Part shown: piece after piece, positions 24,801 through 42,481 of the stretch
How positions within the stretch are numbered: position 1 is the stretch's first letter
How the letters are laid out: each line of letters starts with the position of its first letter
Assembly: GCA_903959175.1 (NCBI GenBank)
Contig: CAJBVW010000102.1
Location: 1 to 54,842 of the forward strand
Direction: 5' to 3'
Source of the DNA: an uncultured Pseudomonadota bacterium
GTDB lineage: Bacteria; Myxococcota_A; UBA796; SXON01
DNA length: 54,842 nt
Position numbers and translations under genes: made by a program
The notes under the pieces: generated by a model
What the model was told of the DNA's origin: nothing
Database searches by the model: none
Seen by the model: the letters and a program-made list of their open reading frames with translations, nothing else

Positions 24801-25129
24801 TCGTCGCAGTCCAGCGGGAAGGCGACGTAGCCGAGGGGCTGATCGCAGGCCGCGACCCAGCCCACAGCCGAGCCGAACGCGTCCCCGTCGGCGTCCGGGT
24901 ACCAGACGGAGGTGCCCTCGGCGTCGTCCTCCGAGCCGGAGCAGTTGTTGTCGACGCCGTTGCAGGTCTCGTGCGCGAGCGGATGGACGTTGTCGTTGAA
25001 GTCGTCGCAGTCGACGGAGGAGTCCCAGCCGTCCTCGTCCAGGTCGTAGGTGGAGCCGTCGTCGGGGAGGCGCACCCACTCGCATCCGGTGAGCGCGAGG
25101 AGGCCGACGCCGAGCAGCCAGCGGGTCAT
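21884..25129 (-). CDS. Lipoprotein with ten MopE-type metal-binding repeats and FG-GAP propeller
   Basis: A 1081-residue secreted lipoprotein. The signal MTRWLLGVGLLALTGC ends in lipobox Cys16. Residues about 25-640 hold ten copies of the 'D.DGDG...DCDD.D....P...E.C.G.DNDCDG..D' unit (Pfam MopE-like metal-binding motif), each about 50-60 residues with paired Cys and Asp-rich Ca-loop-like stretches. The C-terminal half has seven FG-GAP/integrin-alpha-like repeats (DLDGDGLPDLLVGA and variants) that should fold as a beta-propeller. The MopE protein of Methylococcus binds copper; whether these repeats bind Cu or Ca is not known. It overlaps the upstream paralogue by 4 bp (ATGA, 25126-25129), so the two form one operon. 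Confidence 0.85.
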   Translation of the reverse strand: MTRWLLGVGLLALTGCEWVRLPDDGSTYDLDEDGWDSSVDCDDFNDNVHPLAHETCNGVDNNCSGSEDDAEGTSVWYPDADGDAFGSAVGWVAACDQPLGYVAFPLDCDDADSAISPAAVEDDCTEMRDLNCDGLPAAFDNDGDGWAACADCNDTDADVSPDAAERCNALDDDCNGLVDDGGLPTQTWWLDFDGDGWGRASTSLAACTRPDGYSAVDTDCDDTDAALHPDAAEACDGADNDCDALVDEPDRFGNDRWYTDADGDGHGDPAVWEASCTPIADTVSAGDDCDDADPARSPDAAERCDGVDQDCDGTVDEDPTDPRTWYRDADRDGWGSDLDVSLTCDPPVGYIGIEGDCNDAVSATHPDADERCNGADDNCDGAVDERGAVDGESWFADLDGDGWGDDDDAVVSCDAVADRVDLGGDCDDADVAFHPGALEIDCLDPADYNCDGSAGRDDLDGDGWVACQDCDDADGDVRPDAAETCNDVDDDCNAAVDDDAADALTWFPDADGDGYGDAAEGLAACEEPAGYLADDRDCDDGDAAVSPAAEETCATAADDDCDGASNTGAVDCVAFYADADGDTYGDAAACLCAAEAPWTATVPGDCDDSDAAVNPDGTEVCGDGADNNCDAVAVGCGVAGDRSLADADGKLTGVAESDAFGTTVAACGDLDGDGLPDLLVGATGVDDSAFYVGAVYLLSGPLGDTGTAADAGEQWLGGAALDYLGRAVAAGDFDGDGLTDLVLGAPYDDASATNAGGVYLFRGPPASAALSAADGVRLGTDLGDNAGIALAAIPDADLDGDAELAVGAYRETTESLGAGAVYVLDAAPTGTGALADAAALLVGDTASDYFGRALVGLSDLDGDGLGDLAVGAYADDTRVRDGGAVYLYLGPFSGRITTAAADATLYGASSGEGAGLTLAAGDIDADGHSDVVVGALTNDRAGTNAGAVYVAHGPLLGSSTLGSDVTLLGDTAGDGAGLSLAVGDLDDDGHDDVAVAGEGASYGGGGAVWTVYGPLTGVLGLGAAEAITRAEDTNDSVGASLAIPGDLDGDGFLDLVIGAPDEDSAATNAGAVYVLAGGPGL

Positions 25130-27033
25130 CGGGGACCTCCGTGGAGGACGACGGCGCCGCCGGCGTCCACGCCGCCGAGGTCCAGCCCGGGCACGCCGAC
25201 GAGGAGATCGTCGTAGCCGTCGCGATCGAGGTCGCCGACGCCCGCGAGGCCGGCGCCCGCGGCGTCTCCGGGCGCGCCGCCGTAGAGCCGCAGCCCGGCG
25301 TCGACGGTGCGGAGGCTGCCCGAGAGCGGCCCGAAGTAGAGCGCGGCGGCCCCGGCGTCGCTCGCGCCGGTGTCGTTGCCGGGGGCGCCGACGAGCACGT
25401 CGGCGAAGCCGTCGCCGTCGATGTCTCCCGCGGCGCTCACGAAGAACGCCTGATCCGACGCGGCGACCCCGTCCATGCGCGCTTCGGCGTCCGCGAGGGG
25501 CACGGTCCCGGCGACCGGCCCGAGCACGAGCCAGACGCTCCCGGCCTGCGGCAGATCTCCGACTGTGGCCGGCCCGCCGACCGCGACGTCGGCGTAGCCG
25601 TCCGCGTTCACGTCGCCCGCGCCCGCGACGGTCTGGCCGATCGACTGGTTCGGCGCGCCCCCGACGAGCATGGCGGTGGCGGCGTCCTCGGTGATCGTGC
25701 CCGTGGTCCCGCCCGCGACGAGCCAGGCCGCTCCCGAGCGCGCGGCCCCCCCGCCCGTCGCGCCGACGAGCAGGTCGGTGAGGCCGTCGCCGTCCACGTC
25801 TCCGGCGCTCGCGACGGACGCGCCGAGGTCGACGGCGTTCCCGGAGAGGGTGAGGGCCGCCGCAACGCCGTCGAGCCGGCCGCTGAGCGGGCCCGGGAGG
25901 AGCCAGGCGGCGTCGGTCCAGCGACCGCCGATCAGGAGGTCGCCGATGCCGTCCCCGTCGGCGTCGGGGAGGGTGGCGACGCGTAGGTCGAACGGGTTCG
26001 TGGTCCCGAGGCCCTCGAAGGTCGCCTGGGCGTCCGCGAGGTCCACCGTGTCCGCGACCGGACCGGAGACGACGTAGGCGATGCCCGTCCAGCGCGAGCT
26101 CGTGTCCGAACGGCCGTAGGCGGCGAGCACGAGGTCGTCCGCGCCGTCTCCCGTGAGGTCGACCCCTCCCGACATCGAGATCGAGCTGGCCGTCCCGAGC
26201 TCGTGATCTTCGAACACCGCGCTCGGCGCGCCCAGGTCGGCGTCGGCGCCGAGCGGGCCCCGTACCAGCCACCAGGCAGGGCGCCGGGTGTCGTTCGGGG
26301 CTCCGACGAGGAGGTCCAGCCACCCGTCGCCGTCGGTGTCTCCGGCGCCGGAGACCTCGCCCCCGGCGCGGTCCTCCGCCGATGCGCCGATGACCACCAC
26401 CTCCGCGTCGCCGAGGGTCCGGACGCCGCGCATCTCGCAGGGGGGCGTGGTGGCGGGGTCGGCGTCGTCGCAGTCCCCGGCGGTCGGCGCGCTCCACGCG
26501 TCCTCGGACGTGCAGAGGCAGGCCGAGAGCTCGATGCCGACGCCGTCGCCGTCGCCGTCCTCGTACCAGGGGACGCAGCCGATGGCGGCGGGGTCGTTGT
26601 TCGTGCCGTCACAGTCCTCGTCGGCGGGAGAGTCGCAGCGCTCCACGGCGCCGGGGTGGACGAGGGCGTCACTGTCGTCACAGTCGAGCGCGTTCGAGAC
26701 CCACGGGCGGCGGTCGGCCTCGGTGTCGCCGCACCAGAGGTCGGCGGTGGCGGGGTCTCCCCAGCCGTCCCGATCGAGGTCGAGCCAGGCGCTCAGGCCG
26801 TCGCTCGGGTGGTCGTCCGTGGTGCCGTCGCAGTCCTCGTCGACGAGGTCGCAGCGCTCGGCGGCGCCGGGGTGGATGGCGGCGCTGACGTCGTCACAGT
26901 CGAGTGGGAGCGCCCAGCCGTCGCCGTCGTCATCGACCAGCACCTTTTCCGCCGCGGTGCCGGTGGTCTCGTCCGGGGCGCACGCGGGCGCGAACGCGAG
27001 CCCGAGCGCGACCAGCGGGGCGAGGCGGCGCAT
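25126..27033 (-). CDS. Lipoprotein with three MopE-type repeats and FG-GAP propeller
   Basis: A 635-residue paralogue of the following gene. The signal MRRLAPLVALGLAFAPAC gives a lipobox Cys18. Three MopE-type metal-binding units (about residues 35-190; DCDDVSAAIHPGAAERCD, DCDDSDALVHPG and a third DCDD) precede seven FG-GAP-like repeats (DGDGWLDLLVGA, DGDGIGDLLIGG, NADGYADVAVGG and others) forming a predicted propeller to the C-terminus. It is the promoter-proximal gene of the pair and is divergent from a transmembrane Ser/Thr kinase 100 bp away. Surface ligand or metal binding is inferred. Confidence 0.85.
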   Translation of the reverse strand: MRRLAPLVALGLAFAPACAPDETTGTAAEKVLVDDDGDGWALPLDCDDVSAAIHPGAAERCDLVDEDCDGTTDDHPSDGLSAWLDLDRDGWGDPATADLWCGDTEADRRPWVSNALDCDDSDALVHPGAVERCDSPADEDCDGTNNDPAAIGCVPWYEDGDGDGVGIELSACLCTSEDAWSAPTAGDCDDADPATTPPCEMRGVRTLGDAEVVVIGASAEDRAGGEVSGAGDTDGDGWLDLLVGAPNDTRRPAWWLVRGPLGADADLGAPSAVFEDHELGTASSISMSGGVDLTGDGADDLVLAAYGRSDTSSRWTGIAYVVSGPVADTVDLADAQATFEGLGTTNPFDLRVATLPDADGDGIGDLLIGGRWTDAAWLLPGPLSGRLDGVAAALTLSGNAVDLGASVASAGDVDGDGLTDLLVGATGGGAARSGAAWLVAGGTTGTITEDAATAMLVGGAPNQSIGQTVAGAGDVNADGYADVAVGGPATVGDLPQAGSVWLVLGPVAGTVPLADAEARMDGVAASDQAFFVSAAGDIDGDGFADVLVGAPGNDTGASDAGAAALYFGPLSGSLRTVDAGLRLYGGAPGDAAGAGLAGVGDLDRDGYDDLLVGVPGLDLGGVDAGGAVVLHGGPR

Positions 27034-27133
27034 GGGGCTCCGGGGCGCGCGGGGAGGGGGAGGGCGACGAAGGGGCGGCGAAGCCGTACTGTACCCCAGC
27101 GGGCGGGCCGTCCGCATGGTAGCGTTCGGCCCG

Positions 27134-28747
<1,614 letters not shown>

Positions 28748-30791: not shown

Positions 30792-31484
30792 CTACTCTTC
30801 GAAGCGGTAGCCTGTGCCGTGCACGGTCAGGATGTGGCGGGGGTCCGCCGGGGTGTCCTCGACCTTCTTGCGCAGCTTGAGGATCTGGTTGTCGACCGTG
30901 CGCGTGGCCATGCTCGGCGAGTAGCCCCAGACGTGCTGCAGGAGCTCCTCCCGGCTCACGTCCTGACCGCGGTGCGAGATCAGGTAGGCGAGCACGCCGG
31001 CCTCGTGCGTGGTCATGCGGTGCTCGTCGCCGTCGCGCATGAGGATGCGCCGGCGGAGATCGACCTCGTTCTTCCCGAAGCGGTAGACCTCGGGGGCGCG
31101 GGGCGCCGCGGGGCGAGCGCGGAGACGGGCCTTCACGCGGGCGATGAGCTCGCGCAGGGAGAAGGGCTTCACCACGTAGTCGTCCGCGCCGAGCTCGAGG
31201 CCGAGCACGCGGTCGACCTCGGCGCTGCGGGCGGTGAGCAGGATGATCGGCAGCTCGGGGTGGTCGGCCTTCACGCGCTTGAGCACGGAGAGCCCGTCCA
31301 TCCCGGGGAGCATCACGTCGAGCACGAGCACGTCCGGCACGTCGTCCTCGATGGCGTCCAGCGCGGCCTCGCCGCTGTCACAGTGGGTCACCGTGAAGCG
31401 CTCGTGCTCCAGGGCGCTGGTCAAGCCCATCGCGAGCGTCTCGTCGTCTTCGACGACCAGGATGCTGGCCCCTAGGGTCTCCAT
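30792..31484 (-). CDS. OmpR/PhoB-family response regulator
   Basis: A 230-residue regulator. The receiver domain has the acidic pair Asp13/Asp14, the phosphoacceptor Asp56 in DVLVLDVMLPGMDG, and the Lys in VVKPFSLRE. The C-terminal winged-helix domain (about 130-230) carries the standard recognition segment TRTVDNQILKLRKKVEDTP and ends HGTGYRFEE. It is encoded 4 bp after the histidine kinase stop, so the two surely form a two-component pair. It is the last gene of the long cell-wall/signalling operon. Target genes are unknown; envelope or wall genes are a reasonable guess. Confidence 0.93.
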   Translation of the reverse strand: METLGASILVVEDDETLAMGLTSALEHERFTVTHCDSGEAALDAIEDDVPDVLVLDVMLPGMDGLSVLKRVKADHPELPIILLTARSAEVDRVLGLELGADDYVVKPFSLRELIARVKARLRARPAAPRAPEVYRFGKNEVDLRRRILMRDGDEHRMTTHEAGVLAYLISHRGQDVSREELLQHVWGYSPSMATRTVDNQILKLRKKVEDTPADPRHILTVHGTGYRFEE

Positions 31485-31488
31485 AAGA

Positions 31489-33441
31489 CTACCTCCGTCG
31501 CACTCGCAGGATGAATCGGGCGCCGCCGGCGACGCCCTCCCGACACTCTACTTTCCCGCCGTGCAGAAGCGCGGCCTCGGCGACAAATGCTAACCCGAGA
31601 CCGTGGCCCCCGGCGGTCCCACGGCCGGGTCCCTCGACGCGGCGGAACCGCTCGAAGATGCTCTTCCGCATCGCGGGGGGCACCCCGATCCCGTTGTCCT
31701 CGACCTCGAACTGTACCCACCGTCGCTCGACCTGGACACGGATCCAGACCTCGCCGCGGCGGTCCTTGTTCCGATACTTCAGGGCGTTGTCGACGAGGTT
31801 CGTGAGGGCGTCGCGCAGGAAGGACGGGCGGCCCGACATGCGCTCGCCGGGGGGCGGCCCCTCGACGTGGAGGGTGACGCCCTGCTGCTCGAACAGGGGC
31901 CTCCAGCGCTCCGCCACGCCCTGCGCGAGCTCGACCGGATCGAGGCTCTCGCTGCGCTCCTCGATGGGGCGGCTCGCGGCGCGGATGACCTCGTCGAGGC
32001 GCTGCCCGAGGCGCTCGGCCTCCTTCACGATCTGCCGCGCGAACCTTTCTCGCTGGGCGCTGTCGCGGAAGCTGCCCATCTCGAGGTTCTCGGCCATCAG
32101 GCGGATGCCGGCGAGGGGGGTCTTGAGCTCGTGGGTCACGCGCGTCATGAACTCGCGCTGCCGCTCGAGGAGGAGGGCCTGCTTGCGGTCGCTGTGGATG
32201 AGCCCGAGCAGCGAGAAGACGCCGATGAGGATGCCGATCGCGATCGGGAGGAGCTGGACGAAGGCCGTGCGGAGCCCGGTGTCCGGCGCGAGGGCCCCGG
32301 AGGCGACCCCGACGCGGAGGTGGGGGAGGATGCGGGTGAAGGCGGCGTCGGCGGCGAGGGGCTCGGTGGTGCCGCTCATCACGCGGCCTGTGGGGTCCCG
32401 CACGGAGACGTAGGGGCGCAGATCCCGGGGGACGGAGGCGAGGAAGTCCCGGATGAGCGCGGGCTGGTCGAGCTGCACGCCCGCGAGGAGCGCGCCCATC
32501 TCGAGGCGGCTGTAGAACAGCAGGTAGGGAGGATCGCCGTACTGATCGACGAGGAGCCGCGGCCCTTGCGCGATGGTGGGCGCGTCGCGGAGGTTCCACT
32601 CGCGGGTGCGGACCTCGTTGTAGACGGTGAGGCGGCGCTGGGCGCGGAGGTAGAGCTCGTCGTCCTCGCCGCCGAGCAGGGGGCCACCGTACTGCCGGAG
32701 GTCCCGCGCGATGGGGTAGACCCAGAGGTCGAGGACGGACGCCAGCGAGGCGCCGTCGAGGAACGCGATCTCGGAGGCGAGGACCGCCACGATGCGCTCG
32801 GCGAGGTCGGTGCGGCCGAGCATGTCGGCGGCGCGGGCGCGCTGGAGGCGGAGGTAGACGAGGCGGCGAGCGCTGACCCCGTAGTTGGCGGCCTCGTGGA
32901 GGGGGAGGAGCAGGAGCGGGCCGAGCTCGACGATGACGCGCTCGGCGGCGAGCGGCTGGTCGGCGTTGAGGAAGAGCTCGGCGGACTCCGAGGCGGCGAG
33001 GAGGGAGACGGAGGGGCTGCGGCCGATGCACGCGCGGTAGAGGAGGGCCGCCTGGACGGCGTCGACCCGGCCGGCCTCGTGCCCCGCGGTGGCGAGGCAC
33101 GGGTCCGAGCGGAGGAGCGCGAGGTCCTCTTCGAGCTGGGCGGGGGGCCAGCTCACCTCGGAGGGCTCCCAGATGTAGAAGGCGTCGAACCAGGGGCGGG
33201 TCGCGCGGAGGGCCTGCTCGCGCTCGCGGAGGCGCTCGGTGGACGCGAGCTCCTTGAGCCATTGGTCCACCGGCTCGGCGATGGCGTCCTCCCAGCGGTC
33301 GATGACGAGCACGAGCTGATCCTGGACGGCCCGCAGCTCCCGCTCCTCGCTCGCGCGGCGGAAGTTCACCGCCTCGCGCACCCCCACGATGCTCAGGAGC
33401 GCGAGGAGGATCGTGACCATGACGTAGATGACGGGACGCAT
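31489..33441 (-). CDS. Membrane sensor histidine kinase with large periplasmic domain
   Basis: A 650-residue kinase. One membrane helix is at about residues 4-21 and a second at about 394-415, enclosing a ~370-residue periplasmic sensor that is mostly helical and lacks a family I recognise. The cytoplasmic part has the H box FMTRVTHELKTPLAGIRL (His437), N box LTNLVDNALKYRNK, G1 VEDNGIGVPP and G2 GGHGLGLAFV, so it should be active. It overlaps the preceding kinase-like gene (ATGA at 33439-33443 region) and is followed after 4 bp by its regulator. The unusually large sensor may read a wall or lipoprotein signal. Confidence 0.92.
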   Translation of the reverse strand: MRPVIYVMVTILLALLSIVGVREAVNFRRASEERELRAVQDQLVLVIDRWEDAIAEPVDQWLKELASTERLREREQALRATRPWFDAFYIWEPSEVSWPPAQLEEDLALLRSDPCLATAGHEAGRVDAVQAALLYRACIGRSPSVSLLAASESAELFLNADQPLAAERVIVELGPLLLLPLHEAANYGVSARRLVYLRLQRARAADMLGRTDLAERIVAVLASEIAFLDGASLASVLDLWVYPIARDLRQYGGPLLGGEDDELYLRAQRRLTVYNEVRTREWNLRDAPTIAQGPRLLVDQYGDPPYLLFYSRLEMGALLAGVQLDQPALIRDFLASVPRDLRPYVSVRDPTGRVMSGTTEPLAADAAFTRILPHLRVGVASGALAPDTGLRTAFVQLLPIAIGILIGVFSLLGLIHSDRKQALLLERQREFMTRVTHELKTPLAGIRLMAENLEMGSFRDSAQRERFARQIVKEAERLGQRLDEVIRAASRPIEERSESLDPVELAQGVAERWRPLFEQQGVTLHVEGPPPGERMSGRPSFLRDALTNLVDNALKYRNKDRRGEVWIRVQVERRWVQFEVEDNGIGVPPAMRKSIFERFRRVEGPGRGTAGGHGLGLAFVAEAALLHGGKVECREGVAGGARFILRVRRR

Positions 33442-35417
33442 CAGCGCGCACACGTCTGGAGGGCGCCAGACCCGGCCGCGGCGAGCGCGGACCAGGGGTG
33501 GGCGGGGTCGGTGCCCTGGTCGCGCCAGAGGACGGCCTGGGCGTCCGTCCAGCAGCCGCGGGAGGCGTGGCCGAGCGCGAGGCACCACGGCGTGCCCTTG
33601 ATCTGCCAGTCCCCGCGCCGCTTGTCGACGCTCGCGCTCTCGCAGCCCACCCCGCCGGCGGTGTAGAGGTGGCGGAGGGTGCTCTCCTTGAGGGTGCCGT
33701 CCGCGAGGTCGGCGCGCACGAGCAGGTCGGCCCAGCGCAGGTAGTCCGGCACGTCCTCCGCCATGCCCGCGAGGCGGAGGCAGTCCTGGAGGAGCTCGGG
33801 GCCGTTCACCGGGGCGTAGGGCAACCACGGCTCGGCGGTCGTGCACGCCTTCTGTCCGGCGTCGAGCTCGGTGACGGCCGCGGGCAGCAGGGCGCGGCGG
33901 GCCTGGGCCACGAGCTCGTTGCGGACGAGCACCTCCGTCCACGTGGCCTCGACGCGAAGCCAGTTGTGCTCGGCCTCGTCGGGGAGGCGGGCCTGGACGG
34001 CGGCGAGGTCCTCGAGGGCGTCCGTGCAGTGCGTGGGGGCCGTCGTCTCGAGCTTGTTGAGGCGGCAGAAGGCGGCGTCGAGGGTGGCCGAGGCGAGGAG
34101 GGCCACCGGTTCGGTGCTGTCGGCGACGGGCTCGACGGCGGCGAGCGCGGTGTCGTAGGCGTCGGCGTGCCAGCCCGTGTTCGAGTCCTGGAATCCCAGG
34201 GACCACACCGTCGCGAGCGCGCGCACGGCGGCGGCGCGGGGGGTCTCCCGGATGGCGGCGGCGTCCTCGGCGAGGGCCCGGAGGGCCTTGCGCTGGGTCT
34301 TGTCCTTGTTCAGCTCGAAGCGGGTCTTGTTCGCCTTCATCGCGGCGAGGGCGTCCTCCGCGGCGGCGTTCGCCTCGCTGATCTTGGCGCGGTCCCACGC
34401 GATGCCGAGCCCGCCGCAGAGGACGGCGAAGGCGAGCGGGACGCCGAGGACGACGAAGAGGCACCCGCGGGTCGACGAGGCCTTCGCGGGGCGGGCGGTC
34501 GGCGGCGGCGGGACGAACGGCGCGCCGTCGGTGCGCTCGGGCACGCGCTCGGTCTGGAAGGCGGGGGCGGCGTCGAGGCTGCCCGTCGTCTCCGGGACCC
34601 GCTCGGTGTGGGTGCTCGCGGGCGGCGGGGTGGGGCGGTCGAGCCAGTCCACCAGCGGCGCGCCGAGCTCGAGGTGCGCGAGCAGCGCGTCCGTACGCGG
34701 GCGGCGGAGCGGATCGTGGAGGCGGCAGGCGAGGAGGGCGTCGCGCCACGCGGGCGGGGTGCCGGCGGGGAAGCTCTCCTCCACGAGGCGGGCCCACGAC
34801 CAGAGGTCGCTCGAGAGGTAGGTCCGCTGCTCGCGCTCCTGCTCGGGCGCGGCCCAGGACCGCGTGAGGTCCCGCGTGGGGGCGTATGCGGTGGGGTGGG
34901 CGACCTCGCGGAGGGTGTCGAGGTCGATGAGGGCGATGGTGCCGTCGGGCCGGAGGACGAGGTTCTCTGACTTGAAGTCGCCGTAGGTGATGTGGAGGGT
35001 GTGGAGCGCGAGCAGGATGCGGAGCGCGTCGAGCACGCGGGCGCGGGCGTCTTCGGGGGGCGGCACCGGGAGGTGGTGGAGCGGCTCCCCGTGGATCCAG
35101 CGCGTGGAGATGTAGACGCGGCCCTGCTCGTCCACGCCGGCGGCGACGGCTTGGGTCCACGGGAGGGGGGGGCCGAGGTCCCGCGGGAGGCGCGCGGCGA
35201 CGCGGTAGCCCTCGAGCGTGAGCTGGAGGTCCTCCGGGATCATCCCGATCATCGTGCCGTGCCCGTGCAGCACGATCTTCTCGACGAGGGGGCCGAGGTC
35301 GACCGGGAGGCGCGCGGTGAGGAGCACGCGGGTGACGCACTCCTCGCCGTCCACCCACGCCCGGGAGACGCGGCGGTGGCCGGGGACCTCGCGGAGGAGG
35401 ACGGGCGCGCCGCTCAC
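33441..35417 (-). CDS. Atypical membrane protein kinase-like protein
   Basis: A 658-residue protein, GTG start overlapping the SEDS-PBP stop (GTGA). Residues about 1-260 resemble a protein kinase, but no Gly-rich loop or VAIK Lys is evident. The catalytic loop is YGDFKSEN (Asp147, Lys149, Asn152) instead of HRDxKPxN, DFG is replaced by DLD (165-167), and APE is kept as APE (190-192). A Pro/Thr linker follows, then one membrane helix (about 319-341) and a helical extracytoplasmic domain (about 345-658) with several Cys. It occupies the place of PknA/PknB in the actinobacterial locus. It may be an active divergent kinase or a pseudokinase scaffold. Confidence 0.8.
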   Translation of the reverse strand: MSGAPVLLREVPGHRRVSRAWVDGEECVTRVLLTARLPVDLGPLVEKIVLHGHGTMIGMIPEDLQLTLEGYRVAARLPRDLGPPLPWTQAVAAGVDEQGRVYISTRWIHGEPLHHLPVPPPEDARARVLDALRILLALHTLHITYGDFKSENLVLRPDGTIALIDLDTLREVAHPTAYAPTRDLTRSWAAPEQEREQRTYLSSDLWSWARLVEESFPAGTPPAWRDALLACRLHDPLRRPRTDALLAHLELGAPLVDWLDRPTPPPASTHTERVPETTGSLDAAPAFQTERVPERTDGAPFVPPPPTARPAKASSTRGCLFVVLGVPLAFAVLCGGLGIAWDRAKISEANAAAEDALAAMKANKTRFELNKDKTQRKALRALAEDAAAIRETPRAAAVRALATVWSLGFQDSNTGWHADAYDTALAAVEPVADSTEPVALLASATLDAAFCRLNKLETTAPTHCTDALEDLAAVQARLPDEAEHNWLRVEATWTEVLVRNELVAQARRALLPAAVTELDAGQKACTTAEPWLPYAPVNGPELLQDCLRLAGMAEDVPDYLRWADLLVRADLADGTLKESTLRHLYTAGGVGCESASVDKRRGDWQIKGTPWCLALGHASRGCWTDAQAVLWRDQGTDPAHPWSALAAAGSGALQTCAR

Positions 35418-38400
35418 GGGGCCGCCACGGCCGAGGACGGGAGGAAGCCGAGGGCGCGGAGCTCCTTGATCGCCGCGAGGGCGAGGGGGCCCGCGGCGGA
35501 GGCGCCGAAGCCGCCGTGCGGGACGACGGCCGCGACGACGTAGCGGCCGGCGGTGTCGGGCGCGCAGGAGGTGGCGGCGTCGGGCTCGGCGATGGCGACG
35601 AACCAGGAGTGGGGGAGGGTGGTCTGCGCGGGCCGGATCTTCCAGGGGGCCTCGTCCCGCGTGCCCGGGGCGTCGGCGGTGCCGGTCTTGCCGTAGACGC
35701 GCACGCCCGGCACCTTCGGGAGCCGCGCGCCGGTGCCGGAGCGCATGACGCCCTCCATGCCGGCGAGGACGGGCGCGAGGCCGGAGGGGCTGTCGAGCAG
35801 GGCGTTGGCGGTGCAGGCGGCGCCGAGGAGCATGTCGGGCGGGCAGCGGCGGTAGGTGCCGCCGTTCGCGACGGCGCCGACGAGGCGCGCGGCCTGGGTG
35901 ACGTTCCACGAGCCCGCGCCCTGGCCGAAGCCGGTCTGCGCGAGGCGACGGCTGCCCGCGGCGCCGAGGCCGGTGAACGCGCCGTCCGTCTCGGCGTCGA
36001 GGCCGGGGTTGCCGAACTCGACGCCCGCCGCGCGCAGGCCGCGGTAGGCCTCGGGGCCGAGCGCGAGGGCGAGCTGCCCGAAGTAGACGTTGGAGCTCTT
36101 GGTGATGGCGGCGACGAGGTCGAGGTCTCCCCGGGCGCCGCCGTCGCCGTGGTCGTGGATGGGGCGGGACCACGACGGGAGGGTGAAGGAGGGGCGGCCG
36201 TCGTGCACCTGATTGCACGGGAAGCGCGGCTCGCTCGTGGTCGGGCAGGCGTCGGAGGGGGAGGGGGGCACGTTTCCTGTCTTGACCGCGGCGACGGCGC
36301 TCAGCAGCTTGAAGACGGAGCCGGCCTGCCAGATGCCGTGGGCGCCGGTCTTGTCGGACCACGCGCCGTAGATGCCCATGAACTTCGGGTCCGCGGCGAG
36401 GCGCTGCTTGCGCCAGGTCTCCCCGCCCGGGTCGTAGTCGGGCCACTGGGCACGCGCGAGGACCTCGCCGGTGGCGGGGTCGAGGATGACGAGGGCGGCG
36501 GCGCCCACGCTGCTCTTGCCGGCCGCGGCCTTGACCTGCGCGGCGACGGCGGCCTGGAGGCGCGCGTCGAGCGTGAGCTTCACGGAGCGGCTCGCGACGT
36601 CGTCCGAGAGCGCGGTGATGGCGGCCTCACGGTCGGCGAGGGGCATGCGCGCGAGGGGCAGGAGCGAGGCGAGGTCGGGCGTCGCGAGGGGGATGCGGCG
36701 GATGCCCGCCGAGCCGGTGGTGCCGCCGAGGCGGGCGTAGGCGGCGAGGGCGGCCACGGATTCGGAGGGGGCCTCGGTCGCGGCGGAGGGGGCGGCGAGG
36801 AGGAGGCGCTCGCCGTCGGCGGTGCGGCCGAGCCAGATCGCGGGGCCGTCGGTCTTGTCGGGGTAGCCGCGGAGGAACGACTCCTGCTGGCGTTCGAGGC
36901 TCCACTTCGCGCGGAGAAGCCCGCCGCCCGAGGGCCCGAGCACGGTGCCGAGGGCGTCTCCGAGGGGGTGCTCGCGCGTGCCGGCGACCGGGGACGTCGC
37001 GAGCGGGGCGCCGTTGCGATCCTGGATGTCGCCGCGGCGGATGCGGGCGGCGATGGAGGAGAGGCGGCGATCCTGGAGGAGGACGGGGGTGCCGTCTCCC
37101 AGTGTGGTCACGACGCCGCGGAGGGTGGTGGCGTCCCGGCCGATCACCGCGTGCTTCACGGTGAACCCGACGCCGAGGAGCGCGAGGAAGGCGACGGCGA
37201 GCTGCACATGGCGAACGCCGCCGGCGATCTCGCGCAGCTCGTCGGTCGCGACGCGGGCCTCGCCGTCGTCCCCGAGGCGGGCGATCAGCGCGGCGACGGC
37301 CCAGAAGGCGACCATGCTGGTCTTGCCGAACGAGAGGAACGGGACGACGACGCCGGTGAGGGGGAAGGCGCCGAAGGTGCCGCCGAGGATCGTGCCGGCC
37401 TGGGCCACGAGGAGCATGCCGAGGGCGGCCGCGGTGAGCGCGCGCTCCGGCGTGCGGTTGCGCGCGGCGACGCGGAGGCCGTCCGTCACGGCGACACCGA
37501 GGAGGACGAGCCAGGTGAGGGCGCCGGTGACGCCGAGCTCCTCGACGAGGTGGGCGTAGACGAGATCGGTGTGGCCCGCGGGGATGCCGCCCGGGAAGGC
37601 GGTGCCGAGGCCGCTTCCGTTCCAGCCGCCGGCGGCCATCGCCCAGAAGCCGAGCGCGAGCTGGTCGCCGTTGGGGAGCCCGTTGAGCCAGGGGTCCGAC
37701 CACATCCGGAGGCGGGTCTGCACGGTGGTGCTGGGGGCGAGCTCGGGCGCGAAGGCGAAGAGCGCGAGGGTGAGGCCGATGGTGCCGAGCGCGAGGAGCA
37801 CCCAGCCGGGGCTGCGCGTCACGACGTAGAACAGGCCGAGGAACACGGCGCCGAGGATGAGCGTGGGGCCGAGGTCCTTGACGAGGAAGAGGCCGGCCCA
37901 GGTCGCGACGAGGGCGACGAGCGCAGGGAGGAGCAGCGTGGCGCGCGGCAGGCGCAGGAAGCCGGCCCGCACGCGTTGGAAGCGGATCTTCGCCGCGCGG
38001 CGCCCGAGCGCGTCCGCCGCGAAGAGCACCGCGCCGATCTTCACGAGCTCGATGGGCTGGGTGCCGAAGAGGTTGATGCGCTGCCCGGAGTTGCCCGGCG
38101 CGTCGCCAAAGGCGGCGAGGGCGACGAGCACGGCGAGGGTGCCGCCGCCGACGATCCAGCGGCCGCGGGACATCCAGGCGCCGACATCGCCGGGGAGGGC
38201 GAGCACCGCCGCGGCGGCGACGCACGCGTAGAAGACGCCCTCGGCGAAGCCCGGCCCCGGCCAGTCCGGCCGGAAGGGGCTGCCGTAGCCGAGCTGGACG
38301 ACGAGCCCGAGCGCGCTGGCGGCGCCGACGGCGGGGAGGAGCAGGGGCGTACGGATGTGCTGCCCGCGACGGAGGCCGGTCGCCCCGCGCGCCACGGCGA

Positions 38401-38596
38401 GCAGGACGAGGCCGCCGGCGAACCACGCGCCTGCCGTGTGTCCAGCGGCGCGAACGAGCGCGATGTCACCGATGTCGCCGATGTCGCCGCGCGCCCCGGC
38501 GGCGGCGAGTGTTCCCTCTATCGCGACGCTGGCGCCGAACCAGCCGGCCACGGCGACCGCGAGGAGCAGCGCGAGCTCGACGAGCAGGAGGATCAC
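35414..38596 (-). CDS. SEDS glycosyltransferase-class B penicillin-binding protein fusion (RodA/FtsW-PbpA)
   Basis: A single 1060-residue polypeptide joining two normally separate wall synthases. Residues about 1-445 form a polytopic SEDS protein; the catalytic Asp is Asp344 in GIPAGHTDLVYA, and the late motif FPLTGVVVPFLSFGKTSM is present. A further membrane helix (about 463-482) leads into a class B PBP with the N-terminal RGDIQDRNGAPLA motif (521-533) and the transpeptidase triad: SVFK (Ser760-Lys763), SSN (834-836) and KTG (970-972). Both activities should be intact: glycan polymerisation and crosslinking. GTG start at 38596 overlaps the PP2C stop (GTGA). It lies between PP2C and kinase genes, as RodA-PbpA do in actinobacteria, which suggests phospho-control. 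Confidence 0.92.
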   Translation of the reverse strand: MILLLVELALLLAVAVAGWFGASVAIEGTLAAAGARGDIGDIGDIALVRAAGHTAGAWFAGGLVLLAVARGATGLRRGQHIRTPLLLPAVGAASALGLVVQLGYGSPFRPDWPGPGFAEGVFYACVAAAAVLALPGDVGAWMSRGRWIVGGGTLAVLVALAAFGDAPGNSGQRINLFGTQPIELVKIGAVLFAADALGRRAAKIRFQRVRAGFLRLPRATLLLPALVALVATWAGLFLVKDLGPTLILGAVFLGLFYVVTRSPGWVLLALGTIGLTLALFAFAPELAPSTTVQTRLRMWSDPWLNGLPNGDQLALGFWAMAAGGWNGSGLGTAFPGGIPAGHTDLVYAHLVEELGVTGALTWLVLLGVAVTDGLRVAARNRTPERALTAAALGMLLVAQAGTILGGTFGAFPLTGVVVPFLSFGKTSMVAFWAVAALIARLGDDGEARVATDELREIAGGVRHVQLAVAFLALLGVGFTVKHAVIGRDATTLRGVVTTLGDGTPVLLQDRRLSSIAARIRRGDIQDRNGAPLATSPVAGTREHPLGDALGTVLGPSGGGLLRAKWSLERQQESFLRGYPDKTDGPAIWLGRTADGERLLLAAPSAATEAPSESVAALAAYARLGGTTGSAGIRRIPLATPDLASLLPLARMPLADREAAITALSDDVASRSVKLTLDARLQAAVAAQVKAAAGKSSVGAAALVILDPATGEVLARAQWPDYDPGGETWRKQRLAADPKFMGIYGAWSDKTGAHGIWQAGSVFKLLSAVAAVKTGNVPPSPSDACPTTSEPRFPCNQVHDGRPSFTLPSWSRPIHDHGDGGARGDLDLVAAITKSSNVYFGQLALALGPEAYRGLRAAGVEFGNPGLDAETDGAFTGLGAAGSRRLAQTGFGQGAGSWNVTQAARLVGAVANGGTYRRCPPDMLLGAACTANALLDSPSGLAPVLAGMEGVMRSGTGARLPKVPGVRVYGKTGTADAPGTRDEAPWKIRPAQTTLPHSWFVAIAEPDAATSCAPDTAGRYVVAAVVPHGGFGASAAGPLALAAIKELRALGFLPSSAVAAP
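38462..38488. repeat. Three tandem 9-bp repeats in the SEDS-PBP gene
   Basis: GATGTCACC, GATGTCGCC, GATGTCGCC in a row (plus strand) encode the GDIGDIGDI tract at about residues 37-46 in the first loop of the SEDS part. Being a multiple of three, copy-number change would alter loop length without breaking the frame. Confidence 0.8.
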
Positions 38597-39909
38597 GGGG
38601 CGCCCGGGGCGACGGGGGCCGGCTTCGTGGGGGCCCCTTCGGTGGGGACGCCCTCGCTGGGGGCCGCGGGCGCGCCCTCGACCGCCGGAGGCCCGCCGAG
38701 GAGCGCCACGTTGGTCTCCCGCGCGGCGACCGGGCCCTCGTAGACGGCCGCGGTGCCGAGCCACACGTTCTTCAGGACGATGGCGCCGCCGCCGGTGCTC
38801 ACGACGCGGATCGACCCCGCCTCGAGCCGGCTGTCCTCGATCCGCAACGATGCGCCCTGCGCGAGCACCACGGTGAGCGCGCCGCTGAGCTGCACGGTCG
38901 TCTGCTCGAGGGCGAAGCTCCCGCCTTCGCCCACCTCGATCCGCCAGTCCACCCCGCGCACCTGCGTGCCGCGGACGTCGAAGGTGGAGCCGGCCGAGAT
39001 GGTCGTGGTCTTGCCGGCCTCGGCCTCGACGACGGGCATCGTGCCGAAGTCGGTGGCGACGGTGACGCGGTTGGGGAGGTCCGCCACGGGCGGGAGGCGG
39101 CGGCCGAAGAGTGTGAGCCCCGCGAGCACGGCCATCGCGAGGAAGAGCCCGACGGTGACGTTGAAGCCGAGGCGGCGCGGGTTGCGCCCGCGGTGGAAGC
39201 GGCCGATGCGGACGGCCACGACGGTCACGTTGTCGGGGCCGCCGCGCGCGAGGGCGAGCGCGATGAGGCGGCTGGTCACGGCGTCGGCGTCGCCGCCCTC
39301 GCGCCAGAGCCGCATGAACTCCTCCGTGAGCTCCTCCGCGGGCACGGCGTCGTGGAGGCCGTCGCTCGCGAGGAGGAGGAGGTCTCCGCGGGCGACGGGG
39401 AAGCGCCCCGTCTCCACCCACTCGCCGTCCATGACCTTGCGCCCGAGGTCCCGCGCGACGGGCCGCTTCGTGGAGGCAGGGTTCGCGCCCTCGGCCGCGG
39501 CGGTCGCCACGTGGTCGTGGGTGAGCTGCCGCACGCCCTTGGCGTTGACCAGCCACGCGCGGGTGTCGCCGACGTGCGCCACGGCCACGGCGCGGCCGCT
39601 GTCCTCGAGGCGGACGGCCGTCGCGACCGCGCCCATGTCCTTCTGGCCGGGCTCGGACTCGGCCTGCTTCAGGATGCGCGCCCGCGCCTCCTTCATGGCG
39701 GCGACGAGCACGGTCTCGCTCGCGATGCGGGGGAGGTTCGGCACCTCCGCGATGGCGACGGCGGCGATGGCGGCGGCGACCTCGCCGGCCTCCTGGCCGC
39801 CCATGCCGTCGATCACCGCGAAGAGCCCCTGCTCGGCGCGGCAGACGGCGGCGTCCTCGTTGTGGGGGCGCACGCGACCGGCGTGCGTTCGGGCGGAGGC
39901 GGACATCAT
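38593..39909 (-). CDS. Membrane-anchored PP2C-family serine/threonine phosphatase
   Basis: A 438-residue protein. The cytoplasmic PP2C domain (about 1-236) has the metal-binding Asp residues in HNEDA (Asp19), VIDGMGG (Asp34), LASDGLHD (Asp183) and GPDNVTVV (Asp226), like PstP/Stp. A basic stretch (RGRNPRR) precedes one membrane helix (about 249-268). The outside part (about 275-438) is made of short alternating strands typical of beta-helix-like stacks and ends in a Pro/Ala-rich tail, in contrast to the short tails of most PstP proteins. It overlaps the FHA gene upstream (4 bp) and the SEDS-PBP downstream (GTGA). It should oppose the kinases of this operon. Confidence 0.92.
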   Translation of the reverse strand: MMSASARTHAGRVRPHNEDAAVCRAEQGLFAVIDGMGGQEAGEVAAAIAAVAIAEVPNLPRIASETVLVAAMKEARARILKQAESEPGQKDMGAVATAVRLEDSGRAVAVAHVGDTRAWLVNAKGVRQLTHDHVATAAAEGANPASTKRPVARDLGRKVMDGEWVETGRFPVARGDLLLLASDGLHDAVPAEELTEEFMRLWREGGDADAVTSRLIALALARGGPDNVTVVAVRIGRFHRGRNPRRLGFNVTVGLFLAMAVLAGLTLFGRRLPPVADLPNRVTVATDFGTMPVVEAEAGKTTTISAGSTFDVRGTQVRGVDWRIEVGEGGSFALEQTTVQLSGALTVVLAQGASLRIEDSRLEAGSIRVVSTGGGAIVLKNVWLGTAAVYEGPVAARETNVALLGGPPAVEGAPAAPSEGVPTEGAPTKPAPVAPGAP

Positions 39910-40289
39910 GCGCGCGACACCGAGAGCTTCATCTCGCCTCCGGACAACACGATCTCGACGGGGAGCTTCTCGCGGACGGCCTGTCCCGGCGCGAGCGCGA
40001 CGCCGCCCACGGACACGGGGTTGCTGTCACCGGGCTCCCGGGAGACCTCGATGTGGTCCCCATCCACCTGCACGCTCGCCTGACGACGGTTGATGCGGGG
40101 GCCAGCGCCGGGGATCGCGATGTGGTCGGGCCCCGCGTCGGGGTGGGAGCGGCCGAGCACCTGCCGCGCGCCGCCGCGCAGGACGACCTCGCCGGAGGGG
40201 CTCCGCAGGACCGCCGCGCCGACCGGCACGGTGCCGACGACGCCCGGCGCGAGGCTCGGCCCCGCCGGCTTCTGCTTGTCGAGGCGCAC
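39906..40289 (-). CDS. FHA-domain protein, C-terminal part of a frameshifted FhaA-like gene
   Basis: As an independent gene the first start is GTG 40289, giving 127 residues with an FHA domain: GRSHPDAGPDHIAIP, then RINRRQASVQVDGDHIEVSR and NPVSVGG. FHA domains bind phosphothreonine. However, the same frame is open upstream to the stop of the next entry, and there encodes VDDADEVLPGGGVLHARHVPD, which completes the last strands of the DUF3662 domain begun in that entry. I therefore read 39906-40726 as one gene of about 270 codons broken by a one-base shift near 40385-40391. It overlaps the PP2C start by 4 bp. Confidence 0.75.
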   Translation of the reverse strand: MRLDKQKPAGPSLAPGVVGTVPVGAAVLRSPSGEVVLRGGARQVLGRSHPDAGPDHIAIPGAGPRINRRQASVQVDGDHIEVSREPGDSNPVSVGGVALAPGQAVREKLPVEIVLSGGEMKLSVSRA

Positions 40290-40384
40290 GGTGATCTCGC
40301 CGACGCCCGGCGGCGCGGCCTCGCGGTCCGGTACGTGCCGCGCGTGGAGGACGCCGCCGCCGGGGAGGACCTCGTCCGCGTCGT

Positions 40385-40726
40385 CTACGAGAGGCGCACG
40401 GTGAGCGCGCCGACCGTGACGGCGTCGATCCGGACGAGCTCCTCGTAGAGGATCGGGCCGAGGTCCTTCTGCAGGCTCGCCTCGATCGGGCGGAGGCGGT
40501 CGTGGTCGAGGCGGGACAGGAACACGCGGTACTCGTTCCACACCTGGGGCTGGCCGGTGGCGCTCTTGAAGGGGCAGGTGACCATGACCGCGCTGACCGC
40601 CTGGCCGATGGCCCACGCGTCCACGACGACCACCGCCTTCGGTTCGAACACCTTCCACCACGCGCCCTTCCGCTTGACCTTCGAGAAGTCGGCGCGGAAG
40701 CGATCCGGAGACAGGGGCTGAAGCAT
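40385..40726 (-). CDS. DUF3662-like N-terminal part of a frameshifted FhaA-like gene
   Basis: A 113-residue frame from ATG 40726 to TAG at 40385-40387. The pattern VWNEYRVFLSRLDHDRLRP, then LQKDLGPILYEELVRIDAVTVGALTVRL matches the N-terminal DUF3662 domain of FhaA ('NxYTVxLSPxDYERLxP...L.xEL...GPVxVxF'). The domain stops abruptly where one more strand is expected; this strand is present in the neighbouring frame. Shifting back one base after codon CTC (40393-40391) restores the reading. It is adjacent to the next FhaA-like gene (40727), whose stop abuts this ATG. Such proteins bind phosphorylated wall-synthesis partners in actinobacteria. Confidence 0.72.
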   Translation of the reverse strand: MLQPLSPDRFRADFSKVKRKGAWWKVFEPKAVVVVDAWAIGQAVSAVMVTCPFKSATGQPQVWNEYRVFLSRLDHDRLRPIEASLQKDLGPILYEELVRIDAVTVGALTVRLS

Positions 40727-41452
40727 CTACTCCTCCGTCGACACGAGTCGGAGCGCTACGCGCCCGTCGTGTCCGTCGTGCAGCTCGAGGCGGTCGCCCA
40801 CGCGCAGCGGCGCGCGCCCGGACGCGGTCATCGCGGGGCGGACCTGGGTGCCGTCGCGGCGGACGACGAGGAGGAACTCCCCCTGCTGCCGCACCTCGAC
40901 CTCGAAGAGGGCGCCGCTGCGGCGGAGGATCGCCGCCGCGCGGCTCACCCACGCGAGCGACTCGGTGAGGACGATGTCGTTCGGCAGCCGCTGGTCGTCG
41001 GGGCGCTCCTGGTGCCAGCGCCCGCGGCCGATCCGCCACTCGCGGCGCGCGAGGTCCACCGGAAAGCGGTGCCCGTCGTTGTCGCCGCCCTCCACCACCA
41101 ACACTCCGGCGAGGGCGTGCTCGTCCTCGTGCACGGTGACCCCGACGGGCTCGCCGCGCTCGACGTGGTAGCGCCGCGCCGGCAACAGGTCGGCGGCGAC
41201 GAGGCGGTTCTGGAGGCGCGCCTCGAGATCCCGCTCGAAGGCGGGGTCGGCCACGAAGGCGCGGAGCGGCACCAGCCCGCCCTCCGCCGCGCGGATCTGG
41301 ACGCGGACGCCCGCGGGGAAGACCTCGCGGCCGCGCTCGCCATGGCGCTTGAGGGCGAGGATGCCCTCTTCGACCTGGCGCAGGAGGTCGTCCCGGCCAA
41401 GCTCGTCGTCGCCGCCCGACAGGGAGCGACGAATCGTGTCCAGAATCCCCAT
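40727..41452 (-). CDS. FhaA-like protein (DUF3662 + FHA domain)
   Basis: A 241-residue cytoplasmic protein. The N-terminal half (about 1-130) is DUF3662-like (LRQVEEGILALKRHGERGREVFPAG, LRAFVADPAFERDLEARLQ, ARRYHVERGEPVGVTV). The C-terminal half is an FHA domain (about 140-241): WRIGRGR, RLPNDIVLTE, WVSRAAAIL where a typical SRRHAxI reads SRAAAIL, so the phosphothreonine pocket may be weakened, though the Arg of GR and the Asn of PNDI remain. Two such proteins in tandem upstream of PP2C recall fhaA and fhaB of Mycobacterium. The gap to the GGDEF gene upstream is 78 bp. Confidence 0.8.
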   Translation of the reverse strand: MGILDTIRRSLSGGDDELGRDDLLRQVEEGILALKRHGERGREVFPAGVRVQIRAAEGGLVPLRAFVADPAFERDLEARLQNRLVAADLLPARRYHVERGEPVGVTVHEDEHALAGVLVVEGGDNDGHRFPVDLARREWRIGRGRWHQERPDDQRLPNDIVLTESLAWVSRAAAILRRSGALFEVEVRQQGEFLLVVRRDGTQVRPAMTASGRAPLRVGDRLELHDGHDGRVALRLVSTEE

Positions 41453-41530
41453 TGGAACCGCCTCACGCCGCGAACCTATCCGTGTTCCGGGGTTCCCGTC
41501 GCGTTCCGTGCCCAGAGCCCGCGCTCAGCG

Positions 41531-42481
41531 CTACGTCGCGCGCATGACGCGGTTGCGCCCCGCTGCCTTCGCCGCGTACAGCGCGCGATCCGCGCGGTTG
41601 ATCCACTCCTTGACGCTCTCCCCCGCACGCACCCCCGCGACGCCCAACGAGGCCGTCACGCGCAGGCCGGGGTTGGTGCGCGCCCAATCGTGCCCCTCGA
41701 TCGCGCGCCGCACCCGCTCGCCGACCTCGATGGCGCCGGACTCGGGCGTGCCATGGAGGAACATCAGCAGCTCCTCGCCGCCGTACCGGACGCACGCGTC
41801 CGTCTCTCGCACGCCGACCATGAGGATGCGGGCGACGCCGACCAGAACGTCGTCACCGACCTGGTGGCCGAAGGTGTCGTTCACCTGCTTGAACGAGTCG
41901 ATATCCACGAACAGGCACGAGTAGTCCACGCCGAGGCGGGTGGCGGCGGCGAGGTGCACGGGCAGCTCGTCGTCCAGCCAGACGCGGTTCAGCAGCCCGG
42001 TCAGCGGGTCCCGGTTGTTGGACTCGAGGCGCTCGATGACGCTCTGGAGGTGCTCGACCTCCTCGAGGCTCAGCAGGTCCAGGCGCAGCGCGACCTGCCC
42101 GATCTCGAGGTGGTCCCCTGGGCGGAGCTCTGCGCTCTCGACCGGGGTCCCGTTGATGGCGGTGCCGTTGGTGGAGCCGAGGTCCTGCACGCGGAAGCTG
42201 CCGTCGGCGAGGCTGGTGACGCGGGCGTGCCGACGCGAGACCGACGCGTCGTCGAGGACGAGGCTGCCACCCTCGTCGCGACCGATCACGACGTCGTCGC
42301 TGTCGTGGAGCGTGACGTACCGGAGCATGTCGCGCCCGGCCACGACCCGAAGCGTCGGGACGACGACCCGGCGATCGGGGCCGTGGCGACGGACCTGGAT
42401 CTTACGCGTGCTCTCCACGCCCGGGAGGGGCGGCAGGCGCATCTCCCCCGCGTGCAGGGTGTCGTCTCGCTTGGAGGCCAT
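41531..42481 (-). CDS. FHA-domain diguanylate cyclase (GGDEF)
   Basis: A 316-residue soluble protein. The N-terminal FHA domain (about 43-135) has all key residues: GR at 67-68, SRRHA at 82-86 and STNGT at 103-107, so it should bind phosphothreonine. A short helix leads to a GGDEF domain (about 150-316) with the active-site GGEEL (234-238) and, five residues upstream, an RxxD inhibitory site (RETD, 225-228) for product feedback. It therefore should make cyclic di-GMP under control of a phosphorylated partner, perhaps from the kinases nearby. It lies at the head of the wall-synthesis operon; a putative promoter precedes it. Confidence 0.93.
   Translation of the reverse strand: MASKRDDTLHAGEMRLPPLPGVESTRKIQVRRHGPDRRVVVPTLRVVAGRDMLRYVTLHDSDDVVIGRDEGGSLVLDDASVSRRHARVTSLADGSFRVQDLGSTNGTAINGTPVESAELRPGDHLEIGQVALRLDLLSLEEVEHLQSVIERLESNNRDPLTGLLNRVWLDDELPVHLAAATRLGVDYSCLFVDIDSFKQVNDTFGHQVGDDVLVGVARILMVGVRETDACVRYGGEELLMFLHGTPESGAIEVGERVRRAIEGHDWARTNPGLRVTASLGVAGVRAGESVKEWINRADRALYAAKAAGRNRVMRAT

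Follow-up and report, generated by a model that had tools for sequence, protein, structure and literature searches.

Control of wall growth by phosphothreonine is known mainly from Gram-positive bacteria. In Actinobacteria, the genes fhaA, fhaB, pstP, rodA, pbpA, pknA, and pknB lie together in that order (PMC6554272), and in Mycobacterium tuberculosis the phosphorylated juxtamembrane segment of PknB recruits FhaA, according to the passages that cite this result in PMC12077195 and PMC6180346. In Bdellovibrio, the FHA domain of the diguanylate cyclase DgcB binds a phosphothreonine in the protein's own tail, with Val at +3, and the kinase of DgcB is unknown (PMC6733907). Single-frame fusions of a SEDS glycosyltransferase with a penicillin-binding protein (PBP) are stated to exist, and an engineered Escherichia coli RodA-PBP2 fusion is functional (PMC10449877); in the literature collection that we searched, there was no earlier description of natural SEDS-PBP fusions together with FHA/kinase genes. 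Here we describe such a combination in an uncultured bacterium (GTDB lineage Myxococcota_A; UBA796; SXON01) whose genome encodes OmpA-type envelope proteins. It lies at positions 30792-42481 of a 54,842-nt stretch, hereafter the window (positions 1 to 54,842 of contig CAJBVW010000102.1, assembly GCA_903959175.1). We put the probability that this locus encodes a phosphothreonine-controlled peptidoglycan synthase at roughly 0.55.

Gene order and its conservation among relatives

All eight genes of the locus are on the minus strand, transcribed in the order FHA-GGDEF cyclase, FHA1, FhaA, PP2C phosphatase, SEDS-PBP fusion, kinase, histidine kinase (HK), and response regulator (RR) (Table 1). An earlier note, made from the letters of this DNA, had listed the same eight domain types in this strand and order, which profile matches and coordinates bear out. 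It had also described 4-bp overlaps from the last FHA gene through to the HK; these are present at the FhaA-PP2C, PP2C-SEDS, and SEDS-kinase junctions, whereas the kinase-HK junction is TGATG, a 1-bp overlap starting from ATG. No sigma-70 promoter match was obtained within the locus.

Five of these genes (FHA1, FhaA, PP2C, the SEDS-PBP fusion, and the kinase) form a core whose order is kept in four families of the host's taxonomic order, namely the window's own family and those of genomes G022, G038, and G060, and is partial in three more. That this order recurs in other genera and families indicates that the cluster is more than chance. Incomplete versions took several forms: the contig of G059 ends before FHA1; G041 has no FhaA match, its fusion extending to the contig end; the G284 locus has no homologue of the atypical kinase and carries a canonical kinase; and in G367, which is cut off at both ends, no PP2C separates FhaA from the fusion. 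Across the phylum, PF12401 (FhaA_N/DUF3662) was matched in 20 of 379 genomes.

The SEDS and PBP parts are fused in every relative whose gene was read full length, and their catalytic motifs are intact. Every aligned homologue keeps the SEDS catalytic Asp in [HQK]TD and the SxxK and SxN motifs; KTG is lacking only from one truncated row.

Table 1. Genes of the locus, listed in order of transcription (coordinates are those of the window).
Feature	Coordinates	Strand	Description
FHA-GGDEF diguanylate cyclase	41531..42481	-	316 aa; PF00498 + PF00990; GGEEL active site; N-terminal tail Thr
FHA1	40727..41452	-	241 aa; FHA protein, no transmembrane segment; invariant R143, S170, R171
FhaA-like DUF3662-FHA gene	39906..40726	-	PF12401 above cutoff; frame split in window
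PP2C Ser/Thr phosphatase with transmembrane segment and C-terminal domain	38593..39909	-	438 aa; PF00481
SEDS-PBP fusion (RodA-type glycosyltransferase + transpeptidase)	35414..38596	-	1060 aa; PF01098 + PF00905
Atypical Ser/Thr membrane kinase	33441..35417	-	658 aa; PF00069
Membrane histidine kinase (HK), large extracytoplasmic domain	31489..33441	-	HisKA + HATPase_c
OmpR/PhoB-type response regulator (RR)	30792..31484	-	PF00072 + PF00486

The HK-RR pair directly follows the kinase in all 14 window-family loci long enough to show it, with RRs 79-97% identical across the family, and is fixed only there. The FHA-GGDEF gene lies upstream of the core in 12 of 15 window-family loci, ten times directly and twice at 0.7-2 kb. 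These three genes may simply share a transcription unit or neighborhood with the synthase and have no functional tie to it. Consistent with this, they are missing beside the core in the other families, and in 5 of the 15 family loci the cyclase gene either stands 0.7-2 kb away or was not detected in the vicinity. The unbroken adjacency of the pair, the similarity of its regulators, and the tail-threonine/FHA logic that the cyclase has in common with the module all speak for a functional tie, and we regard a purely positional association as rather unlikely.

Farther out, the flanks scanned contained an aminotransferase, a TPR protein, and a B12-binding/radical SAM protein in G022, and an acyl-CoA dehydrogenase in G038. 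In the window itself, a large open reading frame (ORF) at 21884-26608 encodes nine MopE-type metal-binding motifs and seven FG-GAP repeats, and a canonical Ser/Thr kinase is encoded on the plus strand at 26207-28747, matched in one relative among those whose flanks were read. We considered the kinase, MopE, and OmpA genes of the window's flanks as parts of the module and rejected them, since they were matched only in genus-mates save for a 33% MopE match in G013.

FHA proteins, kinase linker, and cyclase

The core encodes two FHA proteins, both of which the earlier note had taken for DUF3662/FHA proteins. This holds for FhaA, for which PF12401 scores 25.7 bits in the window and up to 43 in relatives (cutoff 25) and whose profile matches actinobacterial/firmicute FhaA_N at E 3.9e-8. 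Three residues located between its two domains, T151, R153, and T170, are invariant in the alignment. The FhaA frame of the window is split in the region 40385-40400 by a 1-base deletion at ∼40391 followed by an in-frame TAG at ∼40387; the missing base is present in both aligned genus-mates. Since FhaA is a single ORF of 270-299 aa in all 20 relatives compared and is split in the window's genome alone, either the assembly is wrong here or the mutation is private to this genome.

For FHA1, kinship with DUF3662 could not be demonstrated: the similarity of its N-terminal half to FhaA_N is weak (E 0.06), and hhalign of whole FHA1 against FhaA gave no match. The protein has no Pfam family match and its profile has no solved relative by sequence; its AlphaFold2 model (pLDDT 87) contains an FHA fold in the C-terminal half, at 111-241 (Z 12.6; the fold searches took in the FHA half of FHA1 and the kinase half of the kinase). 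R143, S170, and R171 are conserved in 19 aligned sequences.

In the AlphaFold2 model of the kinase (pLDDT 88), the kinase fold is complete (Z ∼21; Z 20.1 for PknB, 5u94), and the protein is laid out as a kinase domain, a disordered linker at 268-318, a transmembrane segment at ∼319-337, and a helical C-terminal domain, with no PASTA match. The linker carries TERV at 271 and 289. Among 20 homologues, every linker contains T-x-R-V, with 39 copies observed vs. 0.86 expected from shuffles, an expectation that ignores the kinship of the sequences; 34 of the 39 are T[EQD]RV, and none of the 20 kinases has the motif outside the linker. The surrounding linker aligns poorly, which supports selection on the motif itself. 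No T-x-R-[VLI] occurs in the four actinobacterial and the Thermacetogenium kinases compared. On this pattern, the juxtamembrane T-x-R-V motifs are candidate phosphorylation docking sites.

Whether this protein phosphorylates them is less straightforward. The lysine of the VAIK motif is R30 in the window (Arg in 18 and Leu in 2 of the 20 sequences) and no Lys is conserved anywhere in the N-lobe; with the usual ATP-anchoring residue replaced, the kinase could be inactive. The protein might then be a pseudokinase scaffold with a role only in FHA docking, its TERV sites phosphorylated by another Ser/Thr kinase such as the canonical one encoded nearby. We consider this unlikely on the evidence at hand: D147 of the HRD motif, K149, N152, D165 of the DFG motif, and the APE motif do not vary in the 20 sequences and, like the residues of subdomains IX and XI, are constant across four families, which would be unusual for a pseudokinase; the fold is complete; and the nearby canonical kinase was matched in a single relative among those with flanks read. 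We infer that the atypical kinase is probably active.

The PP2C protein matches PF00481 (E 9e-16) and has intact metal-binding motifs in its sequence, and the Stp1/IreP model reaches 133 bits, under its cutoff of 230. The nearest solved protein to FHA-GGDEF is Bdellovibrio DgcB (6hbz, E 2e-41), and as read from its sequence the cyclase has the DgcB layout of a tail Thr, an FHA domain, and a GGDEF domain with catalytic motif; its tail Thr aligns with a Thr in 12 of 13 homologues. A linkage to cyclic di-GMP (c-di-GMP) through this architecture is plausible by analogy with DgcB.

SEDS lineage and wall-synthase content of genomes

In a tree of 33 SEDS sequences, the fusions fall on one side of a branch (support 100/98) together with the Spirosoma fusion, the FHA-linked RodA of Nonomuraea, and the FHA-linked SEDS proteins of two Clostridia, Thermacetogenium and Monoglobus, separated from MreC-linked RodA and FtsW. 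Some RodA/FtsW labels in these trees were assigned by locus or by analyst, and the Aeromonas label is FtsW in the second run. For the same set, the approximately unbiased (AU) test rejected placement of the fusions with MreC-linked RodA (p 5e-7) and with FtsW (p 3e-7). The Spirosoma sequence is a long branch; after its removal and the addition of Tsukamurella RodA and FtsW, the same split was recovered at 100/99. The grouping with actinobacterial FHA-linked RodA, a point for which the earlier note had proposed a tree, is obtained in both runs.

This placement, together with the shared gene classes and their near-identical order, could reflect recent acquisition of the module from Actinobacteria. 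The fusions form a clade of their own on a long stem and span several families, however, and the kinase type, the fusion, and FHA1 are unlike the actinobacterial set, so that we consider a recent transfer highly improbable.

The SEDS complement of the genomes bears on what the fusion does. All absences reported here come from profile searches of fragmented draft assemblies. A full canonical FtsW-type SEDS (about 315-354 bits) was found in 20 of the 22 window-family genomes; in G008 it appears only as a contig-end fragment, and G014 yielded no SEDS match. With partial copies counted, the fusion turned up in 17 of these genomes. Canonical SEDS alone was found in G005, G007, and G018, in the first of which the contig ends after PP2C, accounting for the lack of a fusion. 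In the window's genome, the fusion is the sole SEDS detected besides FtsW, and the other carriers likewise showed no further non-FtsW SEDS, save G017 with a second, divergent fusion-sized protein; in G020, a divergent fusion-sized SEDS was all that was found besides FtsW. The divergent frames of G017 and G020 (L121 382-3696 and L122 5957-9313; 1104 and 1118 aa) give weak SEDS and transpeptidase matches.

None of the 22 window-family genomes gave an MreC match; of 63 genomes in the host's order 4 did, three of them above cutoff (G023, G032, and G062), and each of these three also has, on the same contig, a second canonical SEDS (L142, L143, and L144). Strong MreB matches occur throughout the window's family, and the window's genome has two strong MreB genes (L112 6674-7852; L113 6636-7691), apart from any mreC, mreD, or rodA. 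The only PASTA match in that genome shares its ORF with a class B PBP (L114 3158-5809), ∼4 kb before FtsW.

Most genomes of the host's order were found with a single canonical SEDS, no fusion, and no MreC, which suggests that a second SEDS is dispensable in this order. The fusion might accordingly serve a specialized stage (resting cell, development, or predation), with FtsW carrying out routine synthesis; SEDS proteins with stage-specific roles exist, SpoVE being one. The paucity of other non-FtsW SEDS in carriers, with one genome holding a second divergent fusion, and the presence of the fusion or its neighbors in nearly all window-family genomes point instead to a role in growth, and we judge the specialized-stage explanation possible but somewhat unlikely.

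Proposed mechanism and comparison with known systems

Under phosphothreonine control, the locus might work as follows. Within the fusion, the SEDS half would polymerize lipid II into glycan, which the PBP half would cross-link. The membrane kinase would use its helical C-terminal domain to sense a cue in the periplasm and would phosphorylate T-x-R-V in its own juxtamembrane linker, and probably also T-x-R sites in the linker of FhaA and the tail of the cyclase. The resulting phosphothreonines would dock FHA1, FhaA, and FHA-GGDEF near the synthase, and PP2C would reverse the phosphorylation. In the window's family, the two-component pair may act as a second envelope sensor, and tail phosphorylation could turn the cyclase on as in DgcB, coupling wall growth to c-di-GMP. 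That the kinase, the FHA readers, and PP2C regulate the fused synthase is suggested by analogy with PknB-FhaA and DgcB.

Several observations weigh against phosphothreonine control. Carriers of the gene order are patchy; the VAIK position of the kinase is altered, as discussed above; and FHA1 lacks the canonical FHA His and Asn. In the SEDS analysis the stem leading to the fusions is long, and with the second tree either rival placement (MreC-linked RodA or FtsW) is rejected only at p 0.021. The PBP tree, which is unresolved, does not group the fusion with other FHA-linked PBPs (AU p 0.24 for one clade).

The earlier note had interpreted the locus as an actinobacterial-style module in a Gram-negative organism, in which an HK replaces or supplements the PASTA kinase. 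The gene classes, their order, and the SEDS placement agree with this, and in outline the interpretation appears right, but it is too actinobacterial: related sets occur in Thermacetogenium, Monoglobus, and Spirosoma, and what stands in for the PASTA kinase is another membrane kinase, with a helical non-PASTA C-terminal domain, the HK-RR pair being an addition seen only in the window's family. Neither outcome that the earlier note had named as contradicting it was observed, the order being kept in relatives and FhaA being related to DUF3662. The evidence thus supports the earlier interpretation in part, and its center should move to this different kinase and its candidate docking motifs.

The natural SEDS-PBP fusion, carried by genomes that yielded no MreC, raises the question of whether FHA/kinase-linked SEDS proteins are a third, kinase-controlled type. 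With low confidence, we suggest a wider view: that this lineage, apart from MreC-linked RodA and FtsW, is the sole non-divisome wall synthase of an MreC-less Gram-negative group, and that its T-x-R-V sites recruit both wall regulators and a DgcB-type cyclase. Such a direct link from kinase to c-di-GMP would make the kinase a candidate for the kinase class that is missing for DgcB, and more generally for the kinase of FHA-gated cyclases. T-x-R-V is a short motif and as such testable.

Among known systems, the Rod complex of RodA-PBP2 with MreBCD resembles the window's locus in pairing a SEDS glycosyltransferase with a class B PBP, but the window's SEDS part is split from MreC-linked RodA in the tree and MreC was not found in carriers. 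Bdellovibrio DgcB (6hbz, 6hc0, 6hc1; PMC6733907) has, like the window's cyclase, a short tail with a conserved Thr, an FHA domain, and a GGDEF domain; the window differs in having a candidate kinase gene in the same cluster, alongside a wall synthase. Thermacetogenium (L028) encodes DUF3662-FHA, FHA-SEDS, PBP, and a PASTA-type kinase, Monoglobus has FHA-SEDS-PBP, and a Spirosoma plasmid (L139 1-6269) encodes a Ser/Thr kinase together with a SEDS-PBP fusion of 1323 aa and a protein annotated as having an FHA domain (no Pfam match). Thermacetogenium and Spirosoma thus bring together FHA gene(s), SEDS, PBP, and a Ser/Thr kinase as in the window, and Spirosoma also fuses SEDS and PBP. Thermacetogenium differs in its PASTA-type kinase architecture and in having no PP2C between FhaA and SEDS, and Spirosoma in having no PP2C among the three genes read and an N-terminal extension on its fusion. 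The actinobacterial locus shares the gene classes DUF3662-FHA, FHA, PP2C, SEDS, PBP, and kinase, arranged in almost identical order, a SEDS on the same side of the tree, and a kinase linker with candidate FHA-docking threonines. Where it has separate rodA and pbpA genes, the window has a single fused ORF; in place of PknA and PknB there is one non-PASTA kinase with an altered N-lobe; FHA1 has no transmembrane segment and stands ahead of FhaA; HK-RR and FHA-GGDEF are added; and the host combines OmpA-type envelope proteins with MreB, no MreC having been found.

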